26,357 bases of DNA, taken from IMG/VR virus record IMGVR_UViG_3300010391_000427, positions 1 through 26,357 of that record; one strand, given 5' to 3'. This DNA is from a virus. The notes under the pieces were generated by a model that had not been told where the DNA came from, did no database searches, and was given only the letters and a program-made list of their open reading frames with translations. The position numbers and the translations under genes are program-made. Shown piece after piece: positions 10,193 to 26,279 of this stretch. The stretch's first letter is position 1. Each line of letters starts with the position of its first letter.

Positions 10193-11140
10193 ATGTCACT
10201 AGCTGTCAGCCACATCCTCGCCCAGATGCGCCACGAGCTCGCTGGCGGCGATCTCTCGATCGAGCTGGACAAGTTCGGGATCATCAATCAGGCGGGACAT
10301 CACCTGTACTCCATGCACCCGTGGCGCTGGATCAGCGGGCGCTCGGCGCTGCTGAACCTGCGTGGAGTGCTCTCGGGGTCTACGGCAACCTGGGTTGCCG
10401 CGACCAAGACGTTCACTCAGACAGGCGCCTTCACGAACTACTCGTTCCAAGCAGGCGACGAACTACAGACAATCTCCGGTACAGGTATCACCTCGTCCGT
10501 AGTCAAGATCGCCTCGCGGACGAACAACAACTCGATCGTCGCGTCTACCTCGATCAGCGCCGTAGACCTGGCTACCGGAAACATCAACTGGAGGGTCGAT
10601 CCGCAGACGATCCAGTTGCCGGCCGACTGCCGAGACATCATCTGGATCAGCTCGACCAGCACCTCGGCGGTGGGTGGTGTGACGCTCACGACGCTTGAGC
10701 GCATCCTGAGGCCAGGAAGGCCTCTGCCGCCATCACCTCCTCTACGGGGCTCTTCTACGCTGCCGTGGTCTACTCTGGCGAGCCGCCCGTGCCGTTGCTC
10801 GAGATTTACCCATCTGCGAGTGCCAACGCCACGGGGGCCATGCGGATCTTCTACAGGAGCCGTTGGACTGCGGTCACGGCCGACACGCAGCAGATCAATA
10901 TCCCGGATTTCGTCCTGGACCTCTACATCTGGATCGCAAGGGCCTACGTATCAGGCTATGAGCGAAATGACCTGGAATCGATCCACTCTCGTCTTGCCAA
11001 GATCCGCAACTCGCCGATCTTCTCTGCCGCAGCGCGCTCGGACGGCATGGTGCAGCCGTACTATGGTCCGATCCGAGGTGGCGGGATGCAGGTCTGGAGG
11101 CGCCAGTCTGTACCGATGCCCTTACTGGCCAACAAGGTAG
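10193..11140 (+). CDS. Tail tubular (T7 gp11-like) protein, N-terminal part; frame disrupted
   Basis: The first about 170 residues read as a tubular tail/adaptor protein: LSIELDKFGIINQAGHHLY, then MHPWRWISGRSALLNL, then a beta-rich region ending VTLTTLERILR. The order of helices, an aromatic HPWRW motif and later beta strands resembles the T7 gp11 class that joins portal to nozzle. After about 10705-10725 this frame becomes Pro/Arg/Ser-rich nonsense, while the sensible continuation lies in the -1 frame (10699-11157). The true product is therefore about 320 residues from a frameshift, or the sequence lacks one base. No standard slippery heptamer is seen. ATG 10193 has AAAGG upstream. The tail operon begins here. 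Confidence 0.7.
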   Translation: MSLAVSHILAQMRHELAGGDLSIELDKFGIINQAGHHLYSMHPWRWISGRSALLNLRGVLSGSTATWVAATKTFTQTGAFTNYSFQAGDELQTISGTGITSSVVKIASRTNNNSIVASTSISAVDLATGNINWRVDPQTIQLPADCRDIIWISSTSTSAVGGVTLTTLERILRPGRPLPPSPPLRGSSTLPWSTLASRPCRCSRFTHLRVPTPRGPCGSSTGAVGLRSRPTRSRSISRISSWTSTSGSQGPTYQAMSEMTWNRSTLVLPRSATRRSSLPQRARTAWCSRTMVRSEVAGCRSGGASLYRCPYWPTR

Positions 11141-11157
11141 ACCCGCCCACGCTCTAG
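10765..11157 (+). CDS. Tail tubular protein, C-terminal part in the -1 frame
   Basis: The frame is open from 10699, just after a TGA at 10696-10698, and reads AITSSTGLFYAAVVYSG, PPVPLLEIYPSASAN and MRIFYRSRW, then helices ending in a basic, Pro-rich tail. The phrases LFYAAVVYSG and PPVPLLEIYP suit the second half of a tubular tail protein and are missing from the frame that begins at 10193. GTG 10765 could be a start, but there is no good Shine-Dalgarno, and starting there would cut off about 22 sensible residues. I read it as the end of the same gene. It stops two bases before the nozzle ATG. Confidence 0.65.
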   Translation: MVYSGEPPVPLLEIYPSASANATGAMRIFYRSRWTAVTADTQQINIPDFVLDLYIWIARAYVSGYERNDLESIHSRLAKIRNSPIFSAAARSDGMVQPYYGPIRGGGMQVWRRQSVPMPLLANKVDPPTL

Positions 11158-11159
11158 CC

Positions 11160-14100
11160 ATGGAGCAGAACATCTCGATCGATTGGCCGTTCGCCGGTCT
11201 CTCCGAGAACTTCGGGTTCGGAGATCAGGAGCCCGGCACTGCCCGCGAGTACCAGAATGTACGCGGCATCGACCCACGGACGGGCCGCATTCGCGGCGCA
11301 CAACGCTCTGGTGTCTCGAAGTACATGCCGGCGTATCTGAAAGGCCAGAACATCAAGGTCCAGGACTTGATCTCGTTCTTCCAGGACAATCGCCAGGTGT
11401 CGTACACAGCGATCGCCTCTGGTTCCGAGACGGTCACCTGGAGCACCACGACACCTTCCAAGAAAGACTGCCTGAACGTCAAGACGGACAGACAGGGGAA
11501 CGTCTACGCCCTGGATGGAAACTCTGGGATCGTCAAGCTCTCAGCCGACAACGCCGTCGTCTGGCAGTTGACGCTTCCGATCACTGACCCAAATCACATC
11601 GTTCGCGCGCTCTTCGTAGACGAGTTCGATCGCGTGTACGCAGCCGTCTCGGCTGGTGGTGTGCAAGACAAGGCGATGCTTTGGGCCTACGATCAACTGG
11701 AAGACAACAAGTTTGAACTCTTCTGGGCGATCAACACGAAGCGGTATGTAGAGGACATCGAGACCTATGGAGACAAGCTCTACACCATACAGAACGACTC
11801 CAACAGGAAGCGTTCTTTTGTTACCTCGTACGACGGGATCGACACGACCGATCCTGTTGTGGCTCTCGAGTGGCGGGTGCCATACCCTGCCAACGACCTC
11901 GCCATCAAGAAGGACGGTTCGGTAATAGTCGGATGCGAAGCAGCCACGGGCCAGACAAGCTCGATAGCGGCTACGAACTTCTGGCGCGACGCGGACCCGT
12001 CGTATCAGGGCTATGACGTTGATTCGGTTGACTGGACTCCATACCAGTTGACCAACTTCAATTCGCGTGTGTGGTCCTGGTACGTTGCGGACGATATCGA
12101 CATCACGGATGTAGCCAGCGATTTCGCTAATGGTGTGGAGATATTGCGCTGGAGAGATCGAACCAAGAATCACCGACACTTCTTCGCTGATCTAGCGAAT
12201 CTGGACAGGGGGCCCGTGCTGTCGTTTGATGGTTTGGTCGGCCACAAGTCCGTGTCATGGAACAAGACGGGGGTGACGCAGCCCAATCAGGTATTGCGTA
12301 CGTCCCCGAACGCATCGACGACCAAGGAGTACGCCGATCAGCAGCGGACGATGATCCCAGCCTACACGGACTCCCAGTTCTGTGTCTTCATCGTCATGCG
12401 ACCTTCCGCTACACAGCCGGCCGGCGACAACTTGATGCGCACGGTCTGGTATCAGGATCGCAACAACGTCAGCGATAACGAGCGCCACATCCTGATAATC
12501 AATGCGACCTCTGGAGATGCGCCTTCAACGGCTGCCGGTAATGTCTCCTGGTACACGGGCCCGAATGGGACAGCTCACTCCATTCCGCGTGGCGGTCGCG
12601 GCGGCAACTTCCAGCCAAAGGCATATTCGGTCACTCCAACAGCCAACGGCGCGGGTGCCTGCCTTGTGGTCCAGATGTACGATGGCGGCTTCTATCCTGG
12701 AACAGACTTCGGTGGGTTCATCGTAATCGATCACTGCCAATTCAGAGTGAATGGCAATCCGGGAGACATCTTCGACGGCGCCACCCATAAAAGCCTAGAG
12801 CCAACCTATCTAGGTGCAGGTCGCAAGTTCGGGACTACGGACCTGCCGGCTGGATTCTCGCCTTACCTGGGAGACATCCTAGAGATATTGGTGCTGGATC
12901 GTGGCAGCAGGAATGAGCCGGTTGGGGGGGCTGTCTCTGCGATCGTAGGGAACGACCATCTGGAGGATAATGCAGCGCCGCAGTCGCAGTTGGAAGGCGA
13001 GATGACCCGCATCGAGGGTTATCTCATGCACAAGTATGGGATCCAGTCCAGGCTCCCGAACTCTGGCGCTACATATCCGCACCCATTCGGAAGGACAGGC
13101 GCAAGCCCGGATTACCTGGCTGGACCTCCAGCAAACGACGCCAGCGGTGTATCTACCGCGCAAGCTCTAGCCAACAAAAGCTTCGCCTGTGTCATCAAGT
13201 ACACATCTGAAGGCAAGATCGTCTGGTGCGCGAACGAGATGGCGACCGGAGACGGTTCGCGCCCTGGCGGCTTCGGGTATGCCGTGGCCATCAACTCGAG
13301 CGGGAACATCTATTCGGTAGGCCCCAAGCCGACTGGTGCGGCCGGCGGCTCTCAGCAGATACGGATGATCGTTGACAAGGGAACAACCTTTTCGCTCGCG
13401 GCTGGTGATGGCGCCTGGAGCGTCACGCTGGCCGGAAGTGCCGAATTCGACTACCACTTCCCGAGGCTGGATGTGGACGAATTCGACAACCTCTACCTTC
13501 CATACTACGAGATCACCGGTGGACCGGTGGCGTCCTTCAGGGTCTACAGCAAGACAGGCACATTGCTGCACTCCAAGCTGCTCTCTGCCTCGCAGCAGGG
13601 ACATGCGGTGGCCGTCGATCGACGGATCCCAGCTTACCGTAACGATCTCGCCACGAAGCGTGCGGAGCATATGATAGTCGCCACGACCAACGCCGGCACG
13701 AACACCAACGCTACGGTCCACAAGGTCAGGTTGGTCTCGGTGGCGCAGACTGGCGCTTCTCCTCGGGCCCTGACAACCGTCGGAGTGTCCGGCGGAACGA
13801 TCAAGAGATTCTCGACCAGTGGCACGCAGTCGATCACTGGCGGAACGAACGCACTTGATTCAAATTCCTACGTACAATCTGTCAGTCTGTTCAAGCGCTG
13901 CTACTGGACAGACGGACGCCAATACAAGCAGTTCGAGCCGATCACGAACGCTGTCATCGACTACAAGAGCACGCAGGCCGGGGCTATCCCGAGCCGTTGC
14001 GCCTTGATTGATACCTGGCGCGGTCGCATCGTTCTGGCGCGCAGCGCAGACGAGCCGCACAACTGGTTCCTCTCCAGGAAGGATGACCCAGACAACTGGG

Positions 14101-15095
14101 ACTTCTTCCCCCCGGTACCAAGTGAGATCGATGCAGTCGCAGGAAACAACTCACCAGCAGGGCTCTGCCCTGACATCATCAATGCGATCGTTCCCTACTC
14201 CGAGGACATCCTTGTGTTTGGTGGGGATCACTCCATCTGGGCTCTGGTCGGCGATCCCGCTGCCGGAGGAAGACTGGAGCTCATCTCCGACGTTACCGGC
14301 ATGTCCTTCGGAAGGCCATGGTGTAAGGATCCGAACGGAGTCCTGTACTTCTTCGGAAGCCAAGGAGGCCTCTTCAGGTGGGTTCCCGGAGCCAGACCAG
14401 AGCGAGTCTCGCTGAACAAGATCGAGCGCCAGCTACAGGACGTGAATCTGGCGACGCACTACATCCGTCTCGCCTGGAACTACAGAGACGAAGGTCTGCA
14501 CATCTTCCAGTTCCCATTCGGGACCGGCGGAACGCAGGTCTCGCACTGGTTCTACGAGATGAAGACTGATGCCTTCGCCAAGGATCTGTTCGGGACATCG
14601 ACGGTTACCAATGTGCAGCCGACAGCCGTCATGGTCATCGACGGCGACGACTTCGATGACCGCGTAATGTTGCTGGGCTGCGAGGATGGACGAATCAGGA
14701 AGTGGGACAGGGAGGCCAAGTCGGACGACACGAGGAGTGACGATACGACGCCAGTGGCGATCGACGCCTACGTCACAATTGGACCTCTCCAGGGAGACTT
14801 CGAAGAGCGATTTGCCATGGAGACCCAGTTTTCTGGGTTGACCGTCATTCTCTCCGATCGGGATGATGGGGCCAAGTTCGAGCTCTTCGCAGCCGAGTCG
14901 CCGGAGTCTATCGGGCTACTCTTGCGCTCTGGGCCTCTTGTCCCTGGCAGGAACCCGCCCAAGTGGGATAGGGTGGTCGGCCCGTACTGCTGGCTCAGGA
15001 TCAGGAACGCAGCCCAGGAGCAGCGCTTCTCGTTCGAGAGGGCTTACCTGCGCGCGTCACCTGCCGGGCCAGCCAGACCGAGGAACTACGCATGA
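11160..15095 (+). CDS. Tail nozzle protein (T7 gp12-like) with inserted lectin-like domain, 1311 aa
   Basis: The last about 400 residues have the style of podovirus nozzle proteins: LFKRCYWTDGRQYKQFEP; TWRGRIVLARSADEPHNW; EDILVFGGDHSIWALVGDP; GVLYFFGSQGGLFRW. Beta-propeller-like blades (DRQGNVYALDGNSGIVKLS; SSGNIYSVG; DEFDNLYLPYY) occur on both sides of an insert. The insert, about residues 296-640, matches the ConA/LamG-like lectin plan: an N-terminal W-x-ADD, then VEILRWRDRTKNHRHF, then VLSFDG, and the terminal helix MTRIEGYLMHKYGIQSRLP. At 1311 residues it is far longer than T7 gp12 (about 794). In the family, six copies close the tail tip. The insert probably projects and binds host glycans, which is inference. 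Confidence 0.8.
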   Translation: MEQNISIDWPFAGLSENFGFGDQEPGTAREYQNVRGIDPRTGRIRGAQRSGVSKYMPAYLKGQNIKVQDLISFFQDNRQVSYTAIASGSETVTWSTTTPSKKDCLNVKTDRQGNVYALDGNSGIVKLSADNAVVWQLTLPITDPNHIVRALFVDEFDRVYAAVSAGGVQDKAMLWAYDQLEDNKFELFWAINTKRYVEDIETYGDKLYTIQNDSNRKRSFVTSYDGIDTTDPVVALEWRVPYPANDLAIKKDGSVIVGCEAATGQTSSIAATNFWRDADPSYQGYDVDSVDWTPYQLTNFNSRVWSWYVADDIDITDVASDFANGVEILRWRDRTKNHRHFFADLANLDRGPVLSFDGLVGHKSVSWNKTGVTQPNQVLRTSPNASTTKEYADQQRTMIPAYTDSQFCVFIVMRPSATQPAGDNLMRTVWYQDRNNVSDNERHILIINATSGDAPSTAAGNVSWYTGPNGTAHSIPRGGRGGNFQPKAYSVTPTANGAGACLVVQMYDGGFYPGTDFGGFIVIDHCQFRVNGNPGDIFDGATHKSLEPTYLGAGRKFGTTDLPAGFSPYLGDILEILVLDRGSRNEPVGGAVSAIVGNDHLEDNAAPQSQLEGEMTRIEGYLMHKYGIQSRLPNSGATYPHPFGRTGASPDYLAGPPANDASGVSTAQALANKSFACVIKYTSEGKIVWCANEMATGDGSRPGGFGYAVAINSSGNIYSVGPKPTGAAGGSQQIRMIVDKGTTFSLAAGDGAWSVTLAGSAEFDYHFPRLDVDEFDNLYLPYYEITGGPVASFRVYSKTGTLLHSKLLSASQQGHAVAVDRRIPAYRNDLATKRAEHMIVATTNAGTNTNATVHKVRLVSVAQTGASPRALTTVGVSGGTIKRFSTSGTQSITGGTNALDSNSYVQSVSLFKRCYWTDGRQYKQFEPITNAVIDYKSTQAGAIPSRCALIDTWRGRIVLARSADEPHNWFLSRKDDPDNWDFFPPVPSEIDAVAGNNSPAGLCPDIINAIVPYSEDILVFGGDHSIWALVGDPAAGGRLELISDVTGMSFGRPWCKDPNGVLYFFGSQGGLFRWVPGARPERVSLNKIERQLQDVNLATHYIRLAWNYRDEGLHIFQFPFGTGGTQVSHWFYEMKTDAFAKDLFGTSTVTNVQPTAVMVIDGDDFDDRVMLLGCEDGRIRKWDREAKSDDTRSDDTTPVAIDAYVTIGPLQGDFEERFAMETQFSGLTVILSDRDDGAKFELFAAESPESIGLLLRSGPLVPGRNPPKWDRVVGPYCWLRIRNAAQEQRFSFERAYLRASPAGPARPRNYA

Positions 15096-15439
15096 CATCT
15101 ACGCCGCAACGCTTCACTCCTAGAGCAGGCATGAGGCTCCCAGGCCGCGTCAGGCGGGCCCTGGATGGATCTGTAGACTCGACCAGGCGTTTTGGCGACA
15201 CGATTGAGGTAGCCCCCGACGGCCGCCTGGAGTCGCGCCTGGCGAAGGGTGGCGGACTCAAGATGACCCGCGAAGGCTTGATGCTCGATCTGAAGCTCGC
15301 CGGTGAGAAGAATCGGCCGCAGCTCAACAACGTCCGTGAGCTTGCGCCGACGGCAACTACGGCAGACCTGATAGTCAAGATGAACGAGCTCCTGAAAGAG
15401 AGCATGCGTACCGGCAACATGAAGGGCGGCGTAACGTAA
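15092..15439 (+). CDS. Small fibre-like or structural protein, 115 aa
   Basis: ATGA overlap with the nozzle gene, TAATG overlap with the next. The N-terminus is basic and Pro/Arg-rich. The middle (VAPDGRLESRLAKGGGLKM, then TREGLMLDLK) has the short beta repeat GGL-x-T-x-x-GL seen in phage fibre shafts. The end (TATTADLIVKMNELLKES) resembles the short helix that often ends small phage structural proteins. The resemblance is from memory and not proof. It may be a small adaptor or fibre attached to the nozzle tip. Confidence 0.55.
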   Translation: MTSTPQRFTPRAGMRLPGRVRRALDGSVDSTRRFGDTIEVAPDGRLESRLAKGGGLKMTREGLMLDLKLAGEKNRPQLNNVRELAPTATTADLIVKMNELLKESMRTGNMKGGVT

Positions 15440-16050
15440 TGCCGATCGTTGCGATCGTAGGTCAGTGGCGTTCTGGGACATCTCTGGTGGCCCAGATCGT
15501 GAATCGTCTCGGCTACCATGCTGCGCCGACCATCACGGCTCCCTGTCCGCCGACATGGCGTTCCGACTGGGAGGATCTCGATTTCACCGTGCCGCTGATG
15601 AGACGGAAGAAGATCGACTGGGATTGTTACCTCGAGATGCGCATCAACGTCTCTGCCGCGCTCGGTTTCGGTGGTGACATCGCCATCAAGTCTCCATATC
15701 TGGCTCTCGTCTGGGATGAATTCCTGGACGCCGTGCAGCCGGATCATATCATCCAGACTACGAGAGAAGATGAGGAGTGCGAACGATCACTCAAGCATCA
15801 ACCGCTGGATGTCAAACTCTACAGAAAAGACATAGACAAGATCCGCAAGGTCGATAAGGCCCTGTGGGTTACTTGTTTTGCACGCCACATGAAAATGTTG
15901 GACATACCGTATGAAGACATTATTACGCATCCGGTAGGTTTAACCAGTGACATAGCGGAGTTCATCAACAAGGGAACTGATCCAGAAACAATCAAGGCTG
16001 CATCCAAGCTGATCGGCAAACCTACGGAGTACAAAACATGCCCGCAATAA
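15439..16050 (+). CDS. Sulfotransferase-like P-loop protein, 203 aa
   Basis: The N-terminal strand and loop IVAIVGQWRSGTSLVAQIV gives the sulfotransferase-type P-loop GQWRSGTS (8-15), which binds the 5' phosphosulfate of PAPS in that family. The segment AIKSPYLALVWDEF resembles the family's K-x-P helix. HIIQTTREDEECERSL (about 104-117), with Arg and Ser, resembles the 3' phosphate-binding motif. No acceptor can be named. The last third is AT-richer than the surroundings (TTACTTGTTTTGC; GAAGACATTATTACG), which suggests transfer. It is embedded in the tail/ejection genes with overlaps both sides (TAATG, 13 bases). It may modify a virion or host molecule, or have lost activity. Confidence 0.65.
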   Translation: MPIVAIVGQWRSGTSLVAQIVNRLGYHAAPTITAPCPPTWRSDWEDLDFTVPLMRRKKIDWDCYLEMRINVSAALGFGGDIAIKSPYLALVWDEFLDAVQPDHIIQTTREDEECERSLKHQPLDVKLYRKDIDKIRKVDKALWVTCFARHMKMLDIPYEDIITHPVGLTSDIAEFINKGTDPETIKAASKLIGKPTEYKTCPQ

Positions 16051-16784: not shown

Positions 16785-17888
16785 ATGACACGCATCGTCT
16801 CAGGTTCACAGGATCCCGATTACGGCTTCTCATCGGCCATCCTGAAAGGCCAGGAGATCGGCGCGAACTATCAACGCGCCCGCCTGGCCAATCAGGAGAA
16901 CGCTCGGCAAGAGAAGGAACTGCAACTCAAGATGCAGCACGCGATGTTCCTGCATCAGCAGGAGAAGACGAAGACCCAGCAGCTATTGAATCATCGCGCG
17001 CAGATGGGCGAAGCGGCTGCCTTCCAACAGCTCGCTCAAAAGCAGGCACTCGAAGAGAACCCGGAGGCGATGCAGGTCCAGGACATGCTCGGGGCACTCG
17101 GGAAGATCGACGATCCGCAGGCGCACGCACTGGCCCTGGCTTCATTCCAGGGTCTTCTGAAGCAGCAGGAGAAGGCGAAGCAGAAGGCCGCCGTCGAGAA
17201 GATGATCGACGAAGAAGGCCAGAATGGGATCATTGATCCCAAGGACATGCAGCTCCGCTTAGCCTCTGGTGAAGAGCCGCAAGCGATCGCCCAGGAAATA
17301 ATGAAGGCGAAGCATGAGGCCACTGTCAGTCACATGGCCAAGACTCACTCGGAGGAGATGCTGCCGCAGATGCAGGCCCTCGTGCAGACTGCTCGGCCTG
17401 GCTCTCCCGAGCGCTTGAAGGCAGAGCACATGCTTGCAGAGTTCCAGATATCCGATACGCAGCAGGCGAAGCCAGGTGAAGCAGAGAAGCGCCTAAAGGC
17501 GATCCAGGACGCCCTGATAGTCCCTACCGCAGAAGCTCGATCCAGAAGCAAGGAAGATCGCAGACAGCGACTTCGCACGGTCGGCATGGCATCTCAGGCT
17601 CCGCGTCCTGAGCCGGGTACGCCAGCATACAAGAAGTATGCTGTCGAGAAGAAGGCAGAGAAGGAGAAGCGCTACCCTGCGACAGCCGGCGGCAAGAAGG
17701 CGAAGTCCGCGCAAGTAATCATCAGTGTCCTTCAGGGCAGTAAAGATGAAGCTGACTTCTACGCTAACCTCCAGGCGCAAGGGATTGATCCTGCGAATGA
17801 GGAAGATGCCAAGCTCATCATGGAAGCTCTGGGAGCTGATACTGGCGGCCAAACATCTATGGGACCGTACACGGCCAATAGCCAATGA
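16785..17888 (+). CDS. Internal virion protein, gp15-like, 367 aa
   Basis: Almost entirely helical, rich in Gln, Lys, Glu and Met: QENARQEKELQLKMQHAMF, then QQEKTKTQQLLNHRAQMGE, then long helical repeats. It starts at the base after the upstream TAA and ends in an ATGA overlap with the giant gene. Place and coiled-coil composition match the middle ejection protein (T7 gp15 position) that forms the channel with the large protein. The C-terminal part ends SAQVIISVLQGSKDEADFY. No enzyme motif is seen. Confidence 0.65.
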   Translation: MTRIVSGSQDPDYGFSSAILKGQEIGANYQRARLANQENARQEKELQLKMQHAMFLHQQEKTKTQQLLNHRAQMGEAAAFQQLAQKQALEENPEAMQVQDMLGALGKIDDPQAHALALASFQGLLKQQEKAKQKAAVEKMIDEEGQNGIIDPKDMQLRLASGEEPQAIAQEIMKAKHEATVSHMAKTHSEEMLPQMQALVQTARPGSPERLKAEHMLAEFQISDTQQAKPGEAEKRLKAIQDALIVPTAEARSRSKEDRRQRLRTVGMASQAPRPEPGTPAYKKYAVEKKAEKEKRYPATAGGKKAKSAQVIISVLQGSKDEADFYANLQAQGIDPANEEDAKLIMEALGADTGGQTSMGPYTANSQ

Positions 17889-20800
17889 TCCTGGATGCGG
17901 ACACGGAGAATCAGAGCGTTGATATTCCGGCAGAGGCTCCGGAATACGAGGTAGCTGTCCGCAACAAGGTTGCCGAGGCGTTCCGCGCCCGCAGACCTGA
18001 GCCCCCCACCGGAAGAATGGGGATGGAGCGAGCCGGGGAATCCGCCGCCGGTGCGCTTATCTCTGCGTTTGGCGGCGCTCCGATTGCGGAGTCTCTCTCG
18101 TATCTGGCGCACCACATCAAGAAGGCCCGCATTCTCTCGAAGTTGCCTGTGGCTGGCAAACTGTTCGATGCCCAGATGGAGATCACGGAGAATCTTGGAA
18201 GAGAATGGGCTCTTGGCGCGAAGCGCGTGAGCGACCAGCTTTTGCCTACAGAGCAACAAAAAGGAGACATCTACGAACGCGGCGGGTCATTCGCTGGTGG
18301 TCTTGTGGCCCTGCCGGCTATAGCGGAACAGTTTGGCGCTCTCGGAGTTGCTGCTCTCGGAGCTGGGCAGGCAGGGGCTCCAGCCTACTTCGAGACTCTC
18401 CAGAAGACGGGTGACGAGACGAAGGCCATCAGGGCCATGCTTCCAGCTCTTGGGGTCGGTGCCACCTACGCAGTTCCAGCCGCGAAGATCCTTGGTGGTC
18501 TGAACAAGGCATCTGGAGGTCTGCTCTCGAGCGAGCTCTTCCGCCTGATGTTCGCCACTCCGGCAGCCGAAGGCGCTCTGGCGGTCGGCCAGTCGGCTGC
18601 GCTGGACGCGATCATGGAGCATGCGACCGGGGAGGATCGCAAGTTCCTACAGGACGGGATCGAGCAGGGAGCCTTCGGGTTCGCCACCACATTCGTCTTT
18701 GGCCTCCTGGGGGCTGGGAAGGCTCGGCTTGCTGGGCGGGCCGCAGAAGCCCCAGGCGCCCCTGCCGCAGAAGCCCCAGGCGCCCCTGCCGCGGAAGCCG
18801 CCCCGCAGGCCCACGTAGAGGCTCCTAGCGAGGCCGCTGGCGTTGGAGGGCATCCGCCCAGCGCCGAGCAGCAGGAGGCCGCCAAGCGCTCGATCGGCGC
18901 CATGCCGCGTGAGCTGCTGGGGCTCGAGATACAAGGCCCTGTCTACCACGTCTCCGGCAAGGGCTCCGAGATCGAGAAGGCTGGCGAGCTGCGCGCCTCT
19001 AAGGAAGGCGTCAACCAGGGCGGGCTCGGCGGCATCACGGAAGAACCTGGAGTATCAGTCACCACCAAGCGCGAGAAGGCAGAGCTCTATCAGAAGGAGC
19101 TGGATCGCCTACGCGACCTCTCGAATGCAGCTACCCAAGATGAAGCACTCGATCTCCTTCGGCGTTTTCGGGACGAAGACGCGCGTCTTGATCCTGGTTT
19201 GGCAACAGAAGCCTATCAGGAAGCGATCGCCAAGGCGAAGCATCAGGTCAGTAAAGGAGCTGATCCGCTGGATGCGACGTTCAACGCCTACAGAGACGAG
19301 TATCTCCGGAGGCGAGGAGCTGGCAATTTCCAGGGAGGAAAGCATCCAGGACTAGAGAACCCGAACCTGATCGGAGAGCGCAGCGGCTTCAAGGGCAATG
19401 AGCCGGCCAGGATCTTCGAGGTCCAGAAGGGGCAGATCCCGGAAGGTCACAAGATCAGCAAGGGGCAGGACGAGGGCGAGCTGCGCATCGGCGGGGATGT
19501 CCCGCTTGGCGGGAGGGCAGTTTCGGCGGAAGAAGTGAGGATGACCTCCGGTGTCCTGAAAGGCAGGAAGAATGATATTGTTGAGCTCTACGCTGGTGGT
19601 CCCAGCCCGTTCAGGAACGTCACCACGAAGAGCGTGTTGGCGTTGGCCAAGAGGAATCTCATCTCCACTGGAGATACGCCGCGCACGGCCAGGCGCGAGC
19701 TCGAGCTGGCGCATGGCGCAGTCAAGGCCGAGCTGGCTGAAGCCACGAGACACGCCCGCAAGCTGGACGTAGAAGCTCGCAAGGCGTTCGGCAGGGACTG
19801 GGCCAACGGCAAGGGTGGGCAGCAGATCAAGGACGCCCTCGAGAATAGCGACCTGATCCGCGATCTACCGGAGAACATGCGCCGGCCAGTAGCCCTCCTG
19901 CGCGAGCACCTGGATCGCCTCTCGAGGAGACTGATCGAGACTGGGGCAGCCAAGGGGCCCATGGTCGGGATCATCGAGCGCAACCTGGGCGAGTACGTCA
20001 CCAAGGCGCACCAGGCGTACACGGATCCAGAGTGGGCCGACAAGGTTCCCGAAGATGTACGCAACCGGCTCTTCTCGCTCTGGAAGTCCTGGTCCATGCC
20101 GATCTCCAAGGGCGAACTTGGAGTGCTGGAGGCCGCTTCGAAGCAGGAAGGTGAGGCGGGTCGTTTGGCGCAGATGGAGTTGGCCGGCCGCAAGGACTTC
20201 CTCGACATGAGCGAGGACGAGATCCGTGGCGAGATGGACGCAATCCTGCAACGCGCCAAGGAGCACGCAGACAACCCGTTCGCGCACATCGCATCTGGCA
20301 AGCTTGGTCGCAAGGATCTCTCGATCTTCAAGCACAGGAAGACTATCCCGAAGGAACTACACGACTTCCTTGGAGAGGTGAATAGTCCGATCGCCGCCTA
20401 CGCCAACTCCGTCGTGAAGATGGCCGGAGTTGCTGCGAAGCATGAAGCGTTCACGGCCATCAGACGGACGGGGCTTGGCTCGTTCCTGCATGAGAAGCCG
20501 ACCGGGAAGTTCACCGCACGCTTGTCGGCAGACGGCAACGCCGGACTCCGGCCCCTAGACGGTCTCTACACGACTCCAGAGATCAAGAAGGCGCTCACCG
20601 AGATCGGCCCAGGCGAGCAGCATGCGCTCATCAAGCTGGCCCTGAAGGCAAATGCAGTAGTCAGATGGGGCAAGGTGGTCGGCCAGCCGTGGGCCACCGT
20701 GCGCAACTTGCTCGGCAACTTCCCGACGATGGTTGCCAACGGCCATCTTCCGTGGGTCGGGATGGAGTCCTGGAAGAAGGCATTTTCCAAGGGCGATCTT

Positions 20801-22051
20801 GGAGAGCTGAAGGAGGCCATCAAGCTCGGCGTGATTGGAGATGCGATCAGCACCTACGAGCTTTCTGACGTGCGCGAGATGCTCAAGAAGGCGCCCACCG
20901 ACCTAGGGCAAGACAAGAGCGCGCTGGCAAGCGTGAAGGGGATGGCCGAAAGGCTATTCGCCGCTGGCGACATTGGCCCCAAGCTCTCCGCTTGGGCGCA
21001 GGAATGGAAGGCGCTTGTCAAGGCAGGGATGTCTGAACCTGCTGCGAAGGAGCTGGCTGCTGATCGCATCCGCGACACCATGCCAACCCCAGAGCGCATG
21101 GCCCCATTCCTGAAGAAGTGGCGTGGACAACCTGTGCTGGGCAACTACTTCGCCTTCAGCTCCGAGATCATCCGCAACCTCGGAAACCGAATGCGCCTGA
21201 TCGGCTCGGAGTTGAAGAGCCCCAATCCGAAGATCCGGGCGATGGGGTACAAACGAGTCGCCGGACAACTGGCCGCACTCACGGTTGTTCCCGCTGCGGT
21301 GTACGCCTACAACTCCCTGAACGGGATAGACTCGGAGGAGGATGCTGACCGTCGCAACTTCGTCCCGCCCTGGGACAAGGAGAGCCGCTTGGTGTGGAGC
21401 GGCACCAAGAAGAAGGGCAGATACTTCGATCTCTCGGACGTGGATCCGATGATGACATTCGCCGACCCCGTGGCGCGAATGCTGCAAGGCGAGGATCCGA
21501 CGGAGGCAGGTCTAGCGGCCGTGAAGGAGTACGCGCAGAGAGTCTTCGGGCTATCGCCTATCGCCCAGGTTGCCGTTGAGCTCTACAGCAGCCGCGACAA
21601 GAACGGCGCCCCCATCAAGGATGTGGCGGCCTACCTGAACAAGAACCTCTCTCCCGGTTTCGCGCTCTCCTATCAGCGCGGCAATGAGAATGGGTTTGGG
21701 CCTGAAGTCGCGGCGGCAGCCAGCGGCGTCCGGAGCTATGACTTCGATCCGGAGAAGTCTCTCAAGTACAAGGCGTTCGCCTTCCAGGACGAGATCAGGA
21801 AGGTAAGTATGCAGATCAATGACCTGAAGGACAGGAGAGACCTCGATCCAGACGAGAAGCGCAGCCTTCGCAAGATGGCTGAGTCCGAGAGGAAAGCGCT
21901 CTTCAAGGGACTGCACGAGATGTCTCGATCGGCCATCCGGCTCGGGATCCCGATCTACAAGGTGGAAGACACCTTGGACGCAACGCTCTCAGAAGACGTG
22001 ACGGATGCCATCCTGTCTGGCTACTACATCCCCTACGGGGAAAAGGAATGA
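17885..22051 (+). CDS. Giant internal virion (ejection) protein, 1388 aa
   Basis: Last and largest of the three ejection-type genes, comparable with T7 gp16 (1318 residues). Hydrophobic Ala/Gly-rich stretches occur at about 138-170, 190-210 and 258-280, then an Ala/Pro repeat linker (286-305). Residues about 350-560 contain VYHVSGKGSEI, PGVSVTTKREKAELYQ and GELRIGGDVPL, with spacing like H-Y-E ADP-ribosyltransferase folds; this is a hypothesis. From about 620 the protein is helical (LREHLDRLSRRLIETGAA; RNLGEYVTKAHQAYTDPEW). Residues about 920-1200 (RGQPVLGNYFAFSSEIIRNL; a hydrophobic segment at 1125-1145) resemble the large polyvalent protein domain LPD38 as I recall it. No lysozyme or transglycosylase motif was seen. 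ATGA overlap at both ends. Confidence 0.75.
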   Translation: MILDADTENQSVDIPAEAPEYEVAVRNKVAEAFRARRPEPPTGRMGMERAGESAAGALISAFGGAPIAESLSYLAHHIKKARILSKLPVAGKLFDAQMEITENLGREWALGAKRVSDQLLPTEQQKGDIYERGGSFAGGLVALPAIAEQFGALGVAALGAGQAGAPAYFETLQKTGDETKAIRAMLPALGVGATYAVPAAKILGGLNKASGGLLSSELFRLMFATPAAEGALAVGQSAALDAIMEHATGEDRKFLQDGIEQGAFGFATTFVFGLLGAGKARLAGRAAEAPGAPAAEAPGAPAAEAAPQAHVEAPSEAAGVGGHPPSAEQQEAAKRSIGAMPRELLGLEIQGPVYHVSGKGSEIEKAGELRASKEGVNQGGLGGITEEPGVSVTTKREKAELYQKELDRLRDLSNAATQDEALDLLRRFRDEDARLDPGLATEAYQEAIAKAKHQVSKGADPLDATFNAYRDEYLRRRGAGNFQGGKHPGLENPNLIGERSGFKGNEPARIFEVQKGQIPEGHKISKGQDEGELRIGGDVPLGGRAVSAEEVRMTSGVLKGRKNDIVELYAGGPSPFRNVTTKSVLALAKRNLISTGDTPRTARRELELAHGAVKAELAEATRHARKLDVEARKAFGRDWANGKGGQQIKDALENSDLIRDLPENMRRPVALLREHLDRLSRRLIETGAAKGPMVGIIERNLGEYVTKAHQAYTDPEWADKVPEDVRNRLFSLWKSWSMPISKGELGVLEAASKQEGEAGRLAQMELAGRKDFLDMSEDEIRGEMDAILQRAKEHADNPFAHIASGKLGRKDLSIFKHRKTIPKELHDFLGEVNSPIAAYANSVVKMAGVAAKHEAFTAIRRTGLGSFLHEKPTGKFTARLSADGNAGLRPLDGLYTTPEIKKALTEIGPGEQHALIKLALKANAVVRWGKVVGQPWATVRNLLGNFPTMVANGHLPWVGMESWKKAFSKGDLGELKEAIKLGVIGDAISTYELSDVREMLKKAPTDLGQDKSALASVKGMAERLFAAGDIGPKLSAWAQEWKALVKAGMSEPAAKELAADRIRDTMPTPERMAPFLKKWRGQPVLGNYFAFSSEIIRNLGNRMRLIGSELKSPNPKIRAMGYKRVAGQLAALTVVPAAVYAYNSLNGIDSEEDADRRNFVPPWDKESRLVWSGTKKKGRYFDLSDVDPMMTFADPVARMLQGEDPTEAGLAAVKEYAQRVFGLSPIAQVAVELYSSRDKNGAPIKDVAAYLNKNLSPGFALSYQRGNENGFGPEVAAAASGVRSYDFDPEKSLKYKAFAFQDEIRKVSMQINDLKDRRDLDPDEKRSLRKMAESERKALFKGLHEMSRSAIRLGIPIYKVEDTLDATLSEDVTDAILSGYYIPYGEKE
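18740..18799 (+). repeat. 24-bp tandem repeat, two and a half copies
   Basis: Two identical 24-base units (18740-18763, 18764-18787) and half of a third with one change encode A-E-A-P-G-A-P-A repeats, a flexible linker in the giant ejection protein. Identity at DNA level points to recent duplication. Confidence 0.85.
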
Positions 22052-24034: not shown

Positions 24035-25012
24035 TCACGACTGCCAGTCCACGTCCACCCGCCCCACGTCCTGCTTGTTCCAGTGGATGTGGGCGTCGCC
24101 GACGCAGTTCGTGAACGAGACATGCTTCGTGTCCTTCACGTCGATCCAGTTCTGCCCGCCGGCAGCATGGAATGTGCTGCCGTTGAACGTGACGACGCCG
24201 CAGCCCTGCACGGAGGCGATCGCCTGCTGGTTGTCGCCCGACAGGAAGACACTGCCGCGCACCTGAGCCAACGGGTGCCGCTCGAGCAGCAGCGACCCGG
24301 TGCTCTTCGGCTGCATCGACTTGTCCACGAAGAACCGCGTTATCACGACGTTGTTCTTGGTCTCAAAGCCGCTGAGCGCGAAGGCGGCGCGGGCGTTCCC
24401 GTCACCGATCAGCCGCCCGGCGTTCCTCGAGAGGCAGTCGCTCATCACGATCGGCCCGCCAGGCGTCAGGTCGCCAGCGGCCTTGCAGTCGAAGCCCTGC
24501 TCGATAGGGCGCTGCACGAGCTGCACGTTCTGCGATCCGGTGTCCTCGAAGTAGCAAGCCCGGAGAACGAGCGTCGGAACAGAAAGGGGGATCCCATCTT
24601 TGAGCAACAGGCCACGGTTGTACCCGGCCAGGTTCCAGTAGATGTCGTGCTCGTTGTGCGTGTTGAAGAATGCGCAGCGCTCGACTCTGTTGTCCGAGCG
24701 CATCCTGTAGCTGCGGCTCGCCCACTTCGTAGCGTTGCGTACAGCAAGGTCTTGCAGGCGGATGCCGTCGCAGACCCCGTGGAAGACGAAGTGGTGTAAG
24801 CCGACGCTCGAGTACGGCAGCGAGTAGACGAACATCCTCTTGGATACTACGTCGCCACTGTCGATCGGCCACTCCCCGCGGAGTTCGGTAGGCAGTAGGT
24901 CTTCGGCTGCAACCCCTGGTCCTACCACCGGAGCATCGTACACCGATCCTCCGGTGTAGGCGTTCAGCGCAGCCAGTGACTTCTCGATTCCTTCTTGGAC
25001 GGCGGGCAACAT
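24035..25012 (-). CDS. Parallel beta-helix protein, possible tail spike, 325 aa
   Basis: ATG 25012 is used because AGGAAG lies six bases upstream. A GTG at 25063 is in frame but sits inside a hairpin and has no Shine-Dalgarno. After an N-terminal helix (VQEGIEKSLAALNAY), the protein shows repeats of hydrophobic strands spaced by Asn/Asp/Gly turns (GIRLQDLAVRNATKWASRS; DNRVERCAFFNTHNEHD; VLRACYFEDTGSQN; VTFNGSTFHAAGGQN; HVSFTNCVGDAHIHWN), characteristic of right-handed parallel beta-helices of pectate-lyase and tail-spike type. No catalytic residues can be assigned. As a leftward gene outside the tail operon, it may be a receptor protein or a secreted enzyme. Base composition is like its neighbours. 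Confidence 0.65.
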   Translation of the reverse strand: MLPAVQEGIEKSLAALNAYTGGSVYDAPVVGPGVAAEDLLPTELRGEWPIDSGDVVSKRMFVYSLPYSSVGLHHFVFHGVCDGIRLQDLAVRNATKWASRSYRMRSDNRVERCAFFNTHNEHDIYWNLAGYNRGLLLKDGIPLSVPTLVLRACYFEDTGSQNVQLVQRPIEQGFDCKAAGDLTPGGPIVMSDCLSRNAGRLIGDGNARAAFALSGFETKNNVVITRFFVDKSMQPKSTGSLLLERHPLAQVRGSVFLSGDNQQAIASVQGCGVVTFNGSTFHAAGGQNWIDVKDTKHVSFTNCVGDAHIHWNKQDVGRVDVDWQS

Positions 25013-25040
25013 GATTGACTTCCTGGTTGTAGATGGAAAA

Positions 25041-25105
25041 GCAGCCACATCTCCGACGGGCACCCACGGCTGAGAATGGTTCCGCTCAGGGAGAGATGCG
25101 GCTGC
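25041..25105 (-). terminator. Long structured hairpin with U-run, terminator or leader element
   Basis: On the minus strand GCAGCCGCATCTC (25105-25093) pairs with GAGATGTGGCTGC (25053-25041), 13 pairs with one G-U. The 39-base middle holds a further CTGAG...CTCAG stem, and TTTT follows directly. It lies in the 99-base gap between the secreted-protein gene and the beta-helix gene. A terminator for the upstream genes, or an attenuator in the beta-helix leader, are both possible. Confidence 0.6.
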
Positions 25106-25111
25106 TAGACG

Positions 25112-25534
25112 TTAGTCGTTCGGGAGTGAAACCACCTCGTCGCCGACCTGGACGATAGAGCTCGAGGCCTGATTGTTGCGCTGCTTCTTCTTCTTGACCG
25201 GGCGCATGTTGGCCCATTTCCCGTTGGGTAGCTTCTTCTGCACCTTGCCGTCCTTGATGCGGTAGGTGTTGCCACCCGTGCTCCACTCGCCTGAGCTGGA
25301 TGCGGTCGGAGCCGCCGGGGTCGAGTGAGCGCCTGCGACGCCGTTGGCGACGCTGGAGATTCCGGTTGCGTCAACGCCTTGAACCCAGATGCCGGGCCCT
25401 GGGGTCGATGGCGTCACGTCAACCGACACGGGCTGATCGCCCAGGATCCAGAGCGAGCCATCCTTGACCTCGCCTGCGAAGGCGGTTGCTGACAGCATGA
25501 ACGCCGCAGCGATCGCCACGATTGTCTTCTTCAT
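25112..25534 (-). CDS. Sec-secreted hypothetical protein, 140 aa
   Basis: A clean signal peptide MKKTIVAIAAAFMLSATAFA ends with an A-F-A cleavage site, so the mature protein would start GEVKDG. It contains a Pro/Ser/Gly-rich central part, a short sequence GNTYRIKDGKVQKKLPNGKW (beta hairpin-like) and a strongly basic stretch VKKKKQR, ending with a beta-like tail (SSIVQVGDEVVSLP). AGGAG lies seven bases upstream of the ATG, which overlaps the stop of the previous gene (ATGA). No family is recognised. Export to periplasm or outside is inferred from the signal. A phage protein with a host signal peptide may act on the cell surface. Confidence 0.7.
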   Translation of the reverse strand: MKKTIVAIAAAFMLSATAFAGEVKDGSLWILGDQPVSVDVTPSTPGPGIWVQGVDATGISSVANGVAGAHSTPAAPTASSSGEWSTGGNTYRIKDGKVQKKLPNGKWANMRPVKKKKQRNNQASSSIVQVGDEVVSLPND

Positions 25535-26001
25535 GTCTTGTCTCCTACTGAGTCTCTCGATCCGGAGATCGAACCGAGTGTATTAAAGGCATCCTCGCAG
25601 CCGGAGCCGTCGCCGTAGCCGTAGCCGGAACCGTCGCCGTCGCCGTAGCCGTAGCCGGATCTGGAGCCGTAGCCGTCGCCGTAGCCGTTGCCGTAGCCGT
25701 AGCCGTAGCCGTAGCCGGATCTGGAGCCGTAGCCGGAGCCGTCGCCGTAGCCGTTGCCGTAGCCGTAGCCGGAGCCGTAGCCGTCGAAGCTAAACATAGA
25801 CAGCGCGGGCGCACCGCTTAGGCCGACAATGCCCTTTAACATGCTATCTACAGCCATTTGGGCGTCGATTGGCATTGCCTCTTCTACCCACAGCAGGTTG
25901 CTGTACCCGATATCTGCGAGCATCATGCCAGGCCGAAGCCCGTGATCGGGACATGCACCCGCCGCTTTGGCGGCAAGGAGATGCAGCTCTGTCAGCTCCA
26001 C
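25531..26001 (-). CDS. Gly-Tyr repeat protein, 156 aa
   Basis: GTG 26001 is chosen because GGGAGAGG lies five bases upstream; the open frame begins with a TTG at 26016 that has no signal. The N-terminal about 70 residues are a helical domain (ELTELHLLAAKAAGACPDHG; AQMAVDSMLKGIVGLSGAPAL). Residues about 73-135 are almost wholly Gly-Tyr-Gly with Ser, Asp, Asn and Arg at the variable places, including the repeated block GYGSRSGYGYG. The role is unknown. The short end CEDAFNTLGSISGSRDSVGDKT overlaps the secreted-protein start. It is coupled to the DUF6948-like gene upstream by a ten-base overlap. Confidence 0.7.
   Translation of the reverse strand: MELTELHLLAAKAAGACPDHGLRPGMMLADIGYSNLLWVEEAMPIDAQMAVDSMLKGIVGLSGAPALSMFSFDGYGSGYGYGNGYGDGSGYGSRSGYGYGYGYGNGYGDGYGSRSGYGYGDGDGSGYGYGDGSGCEDAFNTLGSISGSRDSVGDKT
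25601..25786 (-). repeat. Hexanucleotide-type coding repeat (Gly-Tyr-Gly)
   Basis: Nearly continuous units of GCCGTA/GCCGTC/GCCGGA/GCCGTT on the plus strand encode GYG-x-G on the minus strand. A longer unit containing GGATCTGGAGCCGTAGCC occurs twice. All units keep the frame, so copy-number change would lengthen or shorten the protein without breaking it. Confidence 0.85.
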
Positions 26002-26279
26002 GGGGCCCTCTCCCAAGCTTCAACGGCCTTAGCGGTTACATCAAGCACGGCCGTCACATCGCGCAGCTCCATATCTGCTGCGTCGCTTATGCGGCATTCA
26101 CTGTTTGGGCCTTGGCTGGCAAGGCCAACGACCCCCTTGAGAATCTTGCTCCAGTAAACGCACATACGCGCACGCTTGAGCGTGATCGTCTTGCCGGTCG
26201 TATCCAGTGTGTAGCCAAAAAAGACTCCGCGATGAGCAGTCGTGACGACGACCGGGCGCAGCTCGGCGTCGGTGGTCAT
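25992..26279 (-). CDS. DUF6948-like protein, 95 aa
   Basis: The order RPVVVTTAHRGVFFGYTLD, then ITLKRARMCVYWSKI, then GVVGLASQGPNSECRIS, then LRDVTAVLDVTAKAVEAW is the pattern I recall for DUF6948, a short family of phages and their hosts with no known role. The strands and aromatic residues suggest a small beta-rich fold with a final helix. ATG 26279 has AGGAG eight bases upstream and overlaps the stop of the previous gene (ATGA). The family name is from memory and could not be searched. Confidence 0.6.
   Translation of the reverse strand: MTTDAELRPVVVTTAHRGVFFGYTLDTTGKTITLKRARMCVYWSKILKGVVGLASQGPNSECRISDAADMELRDVTAVLDVTAKAVEAWERAPWS

Follow-up and report, generated by a model that had tools for sequence, protein, structure and literature searches.

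The window spans an entire linear virus record (26,357 bases), probably a fragment of a virus genome, and encodes a 1311-residue protein that is confidently predicted to contain a ConA/LamG-type beta-sandwich jelly-roll domain at residues ~292-644 (about positions 12033-13091, plus strand), between two stretches of beta-propeller sequence. This protein is probably a tail nozzle. It is fairly likely that the virus is an SU10-like short-tailed phage, in which a jelly-roll of ~350 residues is located in a propeller loop of the nozzle, is present in six copies, and binds a host-surface glycan. The gene is a single open reading frame (ORF) at positions 11160-15095 on the plus strand, as an earlier note on this DNA had stated. 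The earlier note had also proposed that a lectin-like domain is inserted into a tail nozzle protein. A ConA/LamG-like domain is indeed found within a propeller protein at the podoviral nozzle position, and the nozzle identity of this protein is likely.

Fold and sequence kinship of the inserted domain

The AlphaFold2 model of the insert, built from 66 aligned sequences, is a jelly-roll with a pLDDT of 80.2 and a pTM of 0.87. When this model is compared with the PDB by Foldseek, 39 matches are obtained at E <= 0.001. These matches include a glucanase, arabinofuranosidases, laminin-G and neurexin modules and sialidase lectin domains, and the top ones are mainly glycan-active or glycan-binding beta-sandwiches together with laminin-G modules. 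Viral models give 219 matches at E <= 0.001, many of which are labelled LamG or ConA-like. The Foldseek TM scores of the insert are modest (about 0.2-0.5 by query length), probably because the insert contains long extra loops, some of which are modelled with pLDDT < 50. Binding domains of clostridial neurotoxins are also among the fold matches, but a toxin function is rejected, because only the jelly-roll is shared. VIA-align ranks the tailspike of cyanopodophage Pan3 first (9vyh chain p, Z 19.4, rmsd 3.4, 230 residues aligned) and AbnA with arabinan-binding domain 4 next (Z 17.6), the Z scores of the matches being 15-19 overall. The Pan3 tailspike has the same fold (residues 9-349 of the model against residues 20-270 of the chain) and likewise belongs to the tail of a short-tailed phage. 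However, it is a separate protein of 269 residues, whereas the window domain lies inside one propeller ORF of 1311 codons. The sequence identity between them is 15%, and a profile search of PDB sequences missed Pan3.

The motifs quoted in the earlier note are all found in the translated ORF: ILRWRDRTKNHRHF at residues 328-341, LSFDG at residues 354-358, and the terminal helix IEGYLMHKYGIQSRLP at residues 618-633. The early motif described there as W-x-ADD is present as well, but it reads W-x-x-ADD (WYVADD, in W305-S-W-Y-V-A-D-D312). The insert is located where the earlier note had placed it (12043-13080), except that position 12043 is two bases off frame; residues 296-640 correspond to positions 12045-13079. 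This extent is slightly too small. The insert starts with DWTP at residue ~291 and ends with YPHPF at residue ~643 (positions ~12030-13090), both of which had been missed and both of which fit the plan of a phage domain family described below.

A scan of IMG/VR with the pattern EGYLAHKWG, which was prompted by the terminal helix of the insert, finds at least 120 contigs. The proteins with this pattern have a common plan, WTP..I..LWLDADD..TIT..G..VSQW.DKSGN.RH.....NG...FDG...GDIAEIIV....RQKIEGYLAHKWGL..NLP..HPYK, and the inserts of the window and its relatives are colinear with this plan from end to end. The EGYLAHKWG domains of the phrog_10356 type contain WTP..I..LWLDADD, QWRDKSGN.RH, FDG and EGYLAHKWG..NLP..HPYK in the same order as the window domain, but the window domain is ~100 residues longer than the domains of this family. 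Among the 120 matches listed, the EGYLAHKWG domain looks stand-alone in 59, is C-terminal in 24, and is followed by >150 residues after the motif in 14; a propeller on both sides is seen by eye in none of these 14 listed proteins. A second pairing of the two folds, in another protein, is seen in viral contig L146 (motif at ORF residue 243), where propeller-type repeats (STNGIDWVTTG...SNDGGLTW) come after a LamG domain.

An HMM of the LamG family matches all eight true inserts and none of 168 shuffled or reversed controls. The E-value in this test is 4e-10 for the best member of the insert family, 2e-7 for the window insert, and 0.56 and 0.73 for the two weakest members. When the insert family is compared with the phage LamG family by hhalign, the probability is 98.9%, while that of a reversed-alignment control is 0.8%. 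The comparison was repeated after removal of the C-terminal end motif, because the comparison set had been chosen by this motif, and the probability is then 97.1%. As judged from these comparisons, the likeness of the insert to the phage LamG family is not due to chance. The window domain shares the jelly-roll fold with the Laminin_G_3/ConA-like superfamily. A match to Laminin_G_3 of Pfam is a usual but not obligatory mark of the ConA/LamG superfamily. Laminin_G_3 (PF13385) is matched by one of five sampled members of the EGYLAHKWG family, with an E-value of 4.8e-4 and a score that falls short of its cut-off, and phrog_10356, a virion structural protein, is matched by all three members tested. 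The window domain and its seven relatives match no Pfam family, including Laminin_G_3, and the insert segment alone matches nothing in Pfam, PHROGs or PDB in single-sequence searches. Likewise, PDB sequence searches with single proteins and with profiles A4 and A9 give nothing at their thresholds, and a profile of the C-terminal part (A3) gives only weak WD-repeat-type matches (E >= 0.15). Thus, the insert is placed in the ConA/LamG superfamily by its fold and profile kinship only, and not by a Pfam model. This family is common across viral contigs, but Pfam covers it poorly, and its recognition aids the annotation of receptor-binding candidates in metagenomic phages.

Propeller flanks and gene order

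The beta-propeller profile phrog_8401 matches residues 87-226 with an E-value of 1.3e-4 and residues 666-885 alone with an E-value of 0.019. These matches flank the insert and none is found within it, in agreement with the previous observation that propeller-type sequence resumes on both sides. When the insert is left out, the profile matches one stretch across the junction with an E-value of 3e-8. The score of this joined match (31.5 bits) is close to the sum of those of the two halves (19.4 and 12.2 bits), so that this test indicates a propeller on both sides of the insert but does not establish that a single blade is split. The profile is found in all eight members of the protein family. 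Inspection by eye suggests that about four propeller repeats precede the insert and three follow it; a home-made blade HMM gives only noise. The N-terminal part (residues 1-290, positions 11160-12029) is presumed by analogy to contain the start of a platform, followed by the first propeller repeats, and the repeats resume at residues 666-885 (positions 13155-13814). The C-terminal part (residues 886-1311, positions 13815-15092), presumably the nozzle core and the end of the platform, is the most conserved in the protein, with a mean pairwise identity of 70%. It weakly matches phrog_578 (E 0.06-0.24), which is annotated as 'head closure Hc3' and to which P22 gp10 is assigned by name. The model of the whole chain (AlphaFold2, residues 112-1311, nine sequences) has a pLDDT of 36 and was not used, so that any position assigned to the domain on the tail is tentative. 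This layout suggests that a nozzle propeller tolerates the insertion of a 350-residue domain.

The genes of the window are arranged in the order terminase, portal, scaffold-like, capsid, adaptor, candidate nozzle and ejection-like genes. The candidate nozzle gene thus follows the adaptor gene, as in the podoviral portal-scaffold-capsid-adaptor order, with which it was compared for SU10 and T7. The adaptor gene (10193-11157, plus strand) lies directly upstream of it. In the window record only, this gene shifts frame near position 10745, while the relatives checked read through, probably because of a sequencing or assembly error or because this copy is broken. The two pieces match the intact copies of the relatives in turn, and these intact copies match PF24175 (SU10_adaptor), with a best E-value of 4.3e-7 and with two above the curated cut-off. 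The portal of the window resembles SU10_portal weakly. A sulfotransferase-like gene (15439-16050, plus strand; PF13469, E 3.6e-7) is located between the candidate nozzle and the ejection-like genes, and a gene at 17885-22051 (plus strand) encodes a 1388-residue protein that matches the virion structural protein phrog_22602 (E 4.9e-24) and is possibly an ejection protein.

SU10 shares with the window the order from terminase to adaptor, the adaptor family and, weakly, the portal family. In SU10, however, fibre, holin and endolysin genes lie between the adaptor and nozzle genes, whereas in the window the adaptor gene adjoins that of the candidate nozzle. The SU10 nozzle, gp17, contains domains inserted into a seven-bladed propeller, between blades 2 and 3, and these domains wrap round the tail and straighten for genome release (PMC9509320). 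The SU10 inserts are four Ig-like domains, whereas the window insert has a lectin fold. In addition, receptor binding is reported for tail tubular protein B of Vibrio phage OWB (PMC7241545). The earlier note had regarded a receptor-binding module within the nozzle as an unusual way to meet the host; this view is tempered by the SU10 inserts, the receptor-binding tail tubular protein and the podophage tailspike 9vyh. Inserted nozzle domains (SU10) and a ConA-like tailspike (Pan3) are known precedents, and a lectin fold inside a propeller is a variant of them.

Proposed role of the inserted domain

The region is covered by ten distinct relatives, each of them uncultivated and each containing the insert. 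Relatives that lack the insert are not found when the C-terminal part, the capsid and the portal are used as queries. The presence of the insert in all ten relatives indicates that this lineage has long possessed it, and the insertion seems to predate the lineage. A tblastn search of cultured phages finds no relative of the candidate nozzle, portal or capsid, and a scan of bacterial and archaeal genomes finds no relative. The six full-length members share on average 49% pairwise identity within the insert, compared with 59%, 63% and 70% in the other parts, and gaps account for 7.8% of the insert and 0.4-1.5% elsewhere. The least conserved 365-residue stretch of the candidate nozzle begins at residue 261. 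Thus, the insert is the fastest-diverging part of the candidate nozzle. Trees of the separate parts differ in the placement of one relative: the tree of the insert groups L007 with L008, while that of the N-terminal part and first-propeller flanks groups L008, L009 and L020. Swapping of the insert as a module is unsupported and not claimed, because the tree of the C-terminal part agrees with that of the insert.

In the explanation that we favour, a ConA/LamG-type jelly-roll would be built into a beta-propeller loop of the nozzle, and the nozzle hexamer would display six lectin-like copies around the tail, by analogy with the inserted domains of SU10. The domain would bind a host-surface glycan and give the tail a low-affinity, multivalent grip of its own, which might orient the particle or trigger the nozzle before ejection. 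Nozzle identity, the hexamer, exposure on the tail surface and glycan binding are all what we infer. Glycan binding is the most likely role of the insert, as suggested by its fold and its faster divergence, neither of which is proof. Many ConA-like domains are structural or protein-binding, which is a point against glycan binding, and the faster divergence also fits a weakly constrained surface domain. Receptor binding may be accomplished by other virion proteins.

It is unlikely, although it deserves serious weight, that the insert is structural, such that it stabilises the contacts between nozzle subunits or docks a separate spike without binding a host glycan. In SU10, the main task of the Ig-like inserts is to keep the tail together, and the fibres dock onto the extension of a propeller blade (PMC9509320). 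Possible separate beta-helix proteins are encoded in the window and in two relatives (see below), and the domain is kept in all relatives. However, a dock or contact domain is expected to be conserved, whereas no other part of the protein varies as much in sequence and length as the insert, and the solved folds closest to the insert belong for the most part to modules that bind glycans or cells.

It is improbable that the nozzle position is occupied instead by a distinct receptor-binding or spike protein of the propeller type that carries a lectin module. Profile and sequence comparisons of the candidate nozzle with the SU10-type, T7 and P22 nozzles give no signal, its 1311 residues exceed those of T7 gp12 (794) and SU10 gp17 (1005), and phrog_8401 represents a general repeat family. 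However, the SU10 and T7 nozzles likewise have no detectable similarity to each other (PMC9509320), the gene is located directly 3' of an SU10-type adaptor gene, no other gene has a fitting size and position, and the strongly conserved C-terminal part suits a core tail part. The earlier assignment as a nozzle is likely from the position, the SU10-type adaptor upstream and the propeller match, but not from a sequence link to solved nozzles.

Two further explanations concern the insert itself. It is very unlikely that the insert is a glycan-cleaving enzyme with a ConA-like or arabinofuranosidase-like fold that clears a path through surface polysaccharide: an endo-1,3-beta-glucanase (3dgt) and an arabinofuranosidase (1wd3) are among the top fold matches, but the family is broad and rich in non-catalytic lectins and LamG domains, and no Pfam enzyme family is matched. 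That residues 296-640 are ordinary propeller blades with no inserted domain is hardly credible, because, although the close relatives are all about equal in length (all of them containing the insert), the domain boundary is clear, the propeller profile flanks the insert without entering it, the insert shows LamG profile kinship, and the AlphaFold check that the earlier note had proposed yields a confident jelly-roll with fold matches, which excludes such blades.

Separate fibre or spike candidates

In podophages, recognition of the host is generally attributed to tail-attached fibres or spikes. The absence of a visible separate long fibre gene, as stated in the earlier note, is uncertain, because the record is probably a fragment, a 342-residue ORF of the window is beta-helix-like, and look-alikes of ~378 residues are encoded by two relatives. 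Three relatives extend to 42-49 kb, compared with 26 kb for the window record. The 342-residue ORF (24035-25063, minus strand) has, by eye only, the look of a parallel beta-helix, and on this basis is a candidate tailspike. It has no family match and no relative in six related contigs. The proteins of the two relatives, of 375 and 381 residues, also have a beta-helix look and match each other at 33%, and the 375-residue protein matches Beta_helix weakly (E 0.021). It is improbable that this lineage lacks a first-contact fibre or spike and that the lectin-like domain of the nozzle combines primary host recognition and the ejection channel in one polypeptide. A lectin-like module that forms part of the nozzle itself would link recognition to channel opening within a single protein, and the host range of such phages would not be readable from fibre genes alone.

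Several other genes of the window and its relatives were observed. The relatives encode a family of 474-649-residue proteins with repeated DTEQISD-like segments (L158 6197-9636, L159 16278-19561 and L160 18120-19580), which have no family match and of which two neighbouring copies are present in L158 and in L159. A small protein with a signal-peptide-like start is encoded at 25112-25534 (minus strand) of the window and has look-alikes at L158 14334-14804, L159 4136-4588 and L160 8436-9059. An ORF at 25531-26016 (minus strand) contains GYGYGDGSGYG-type repeats.
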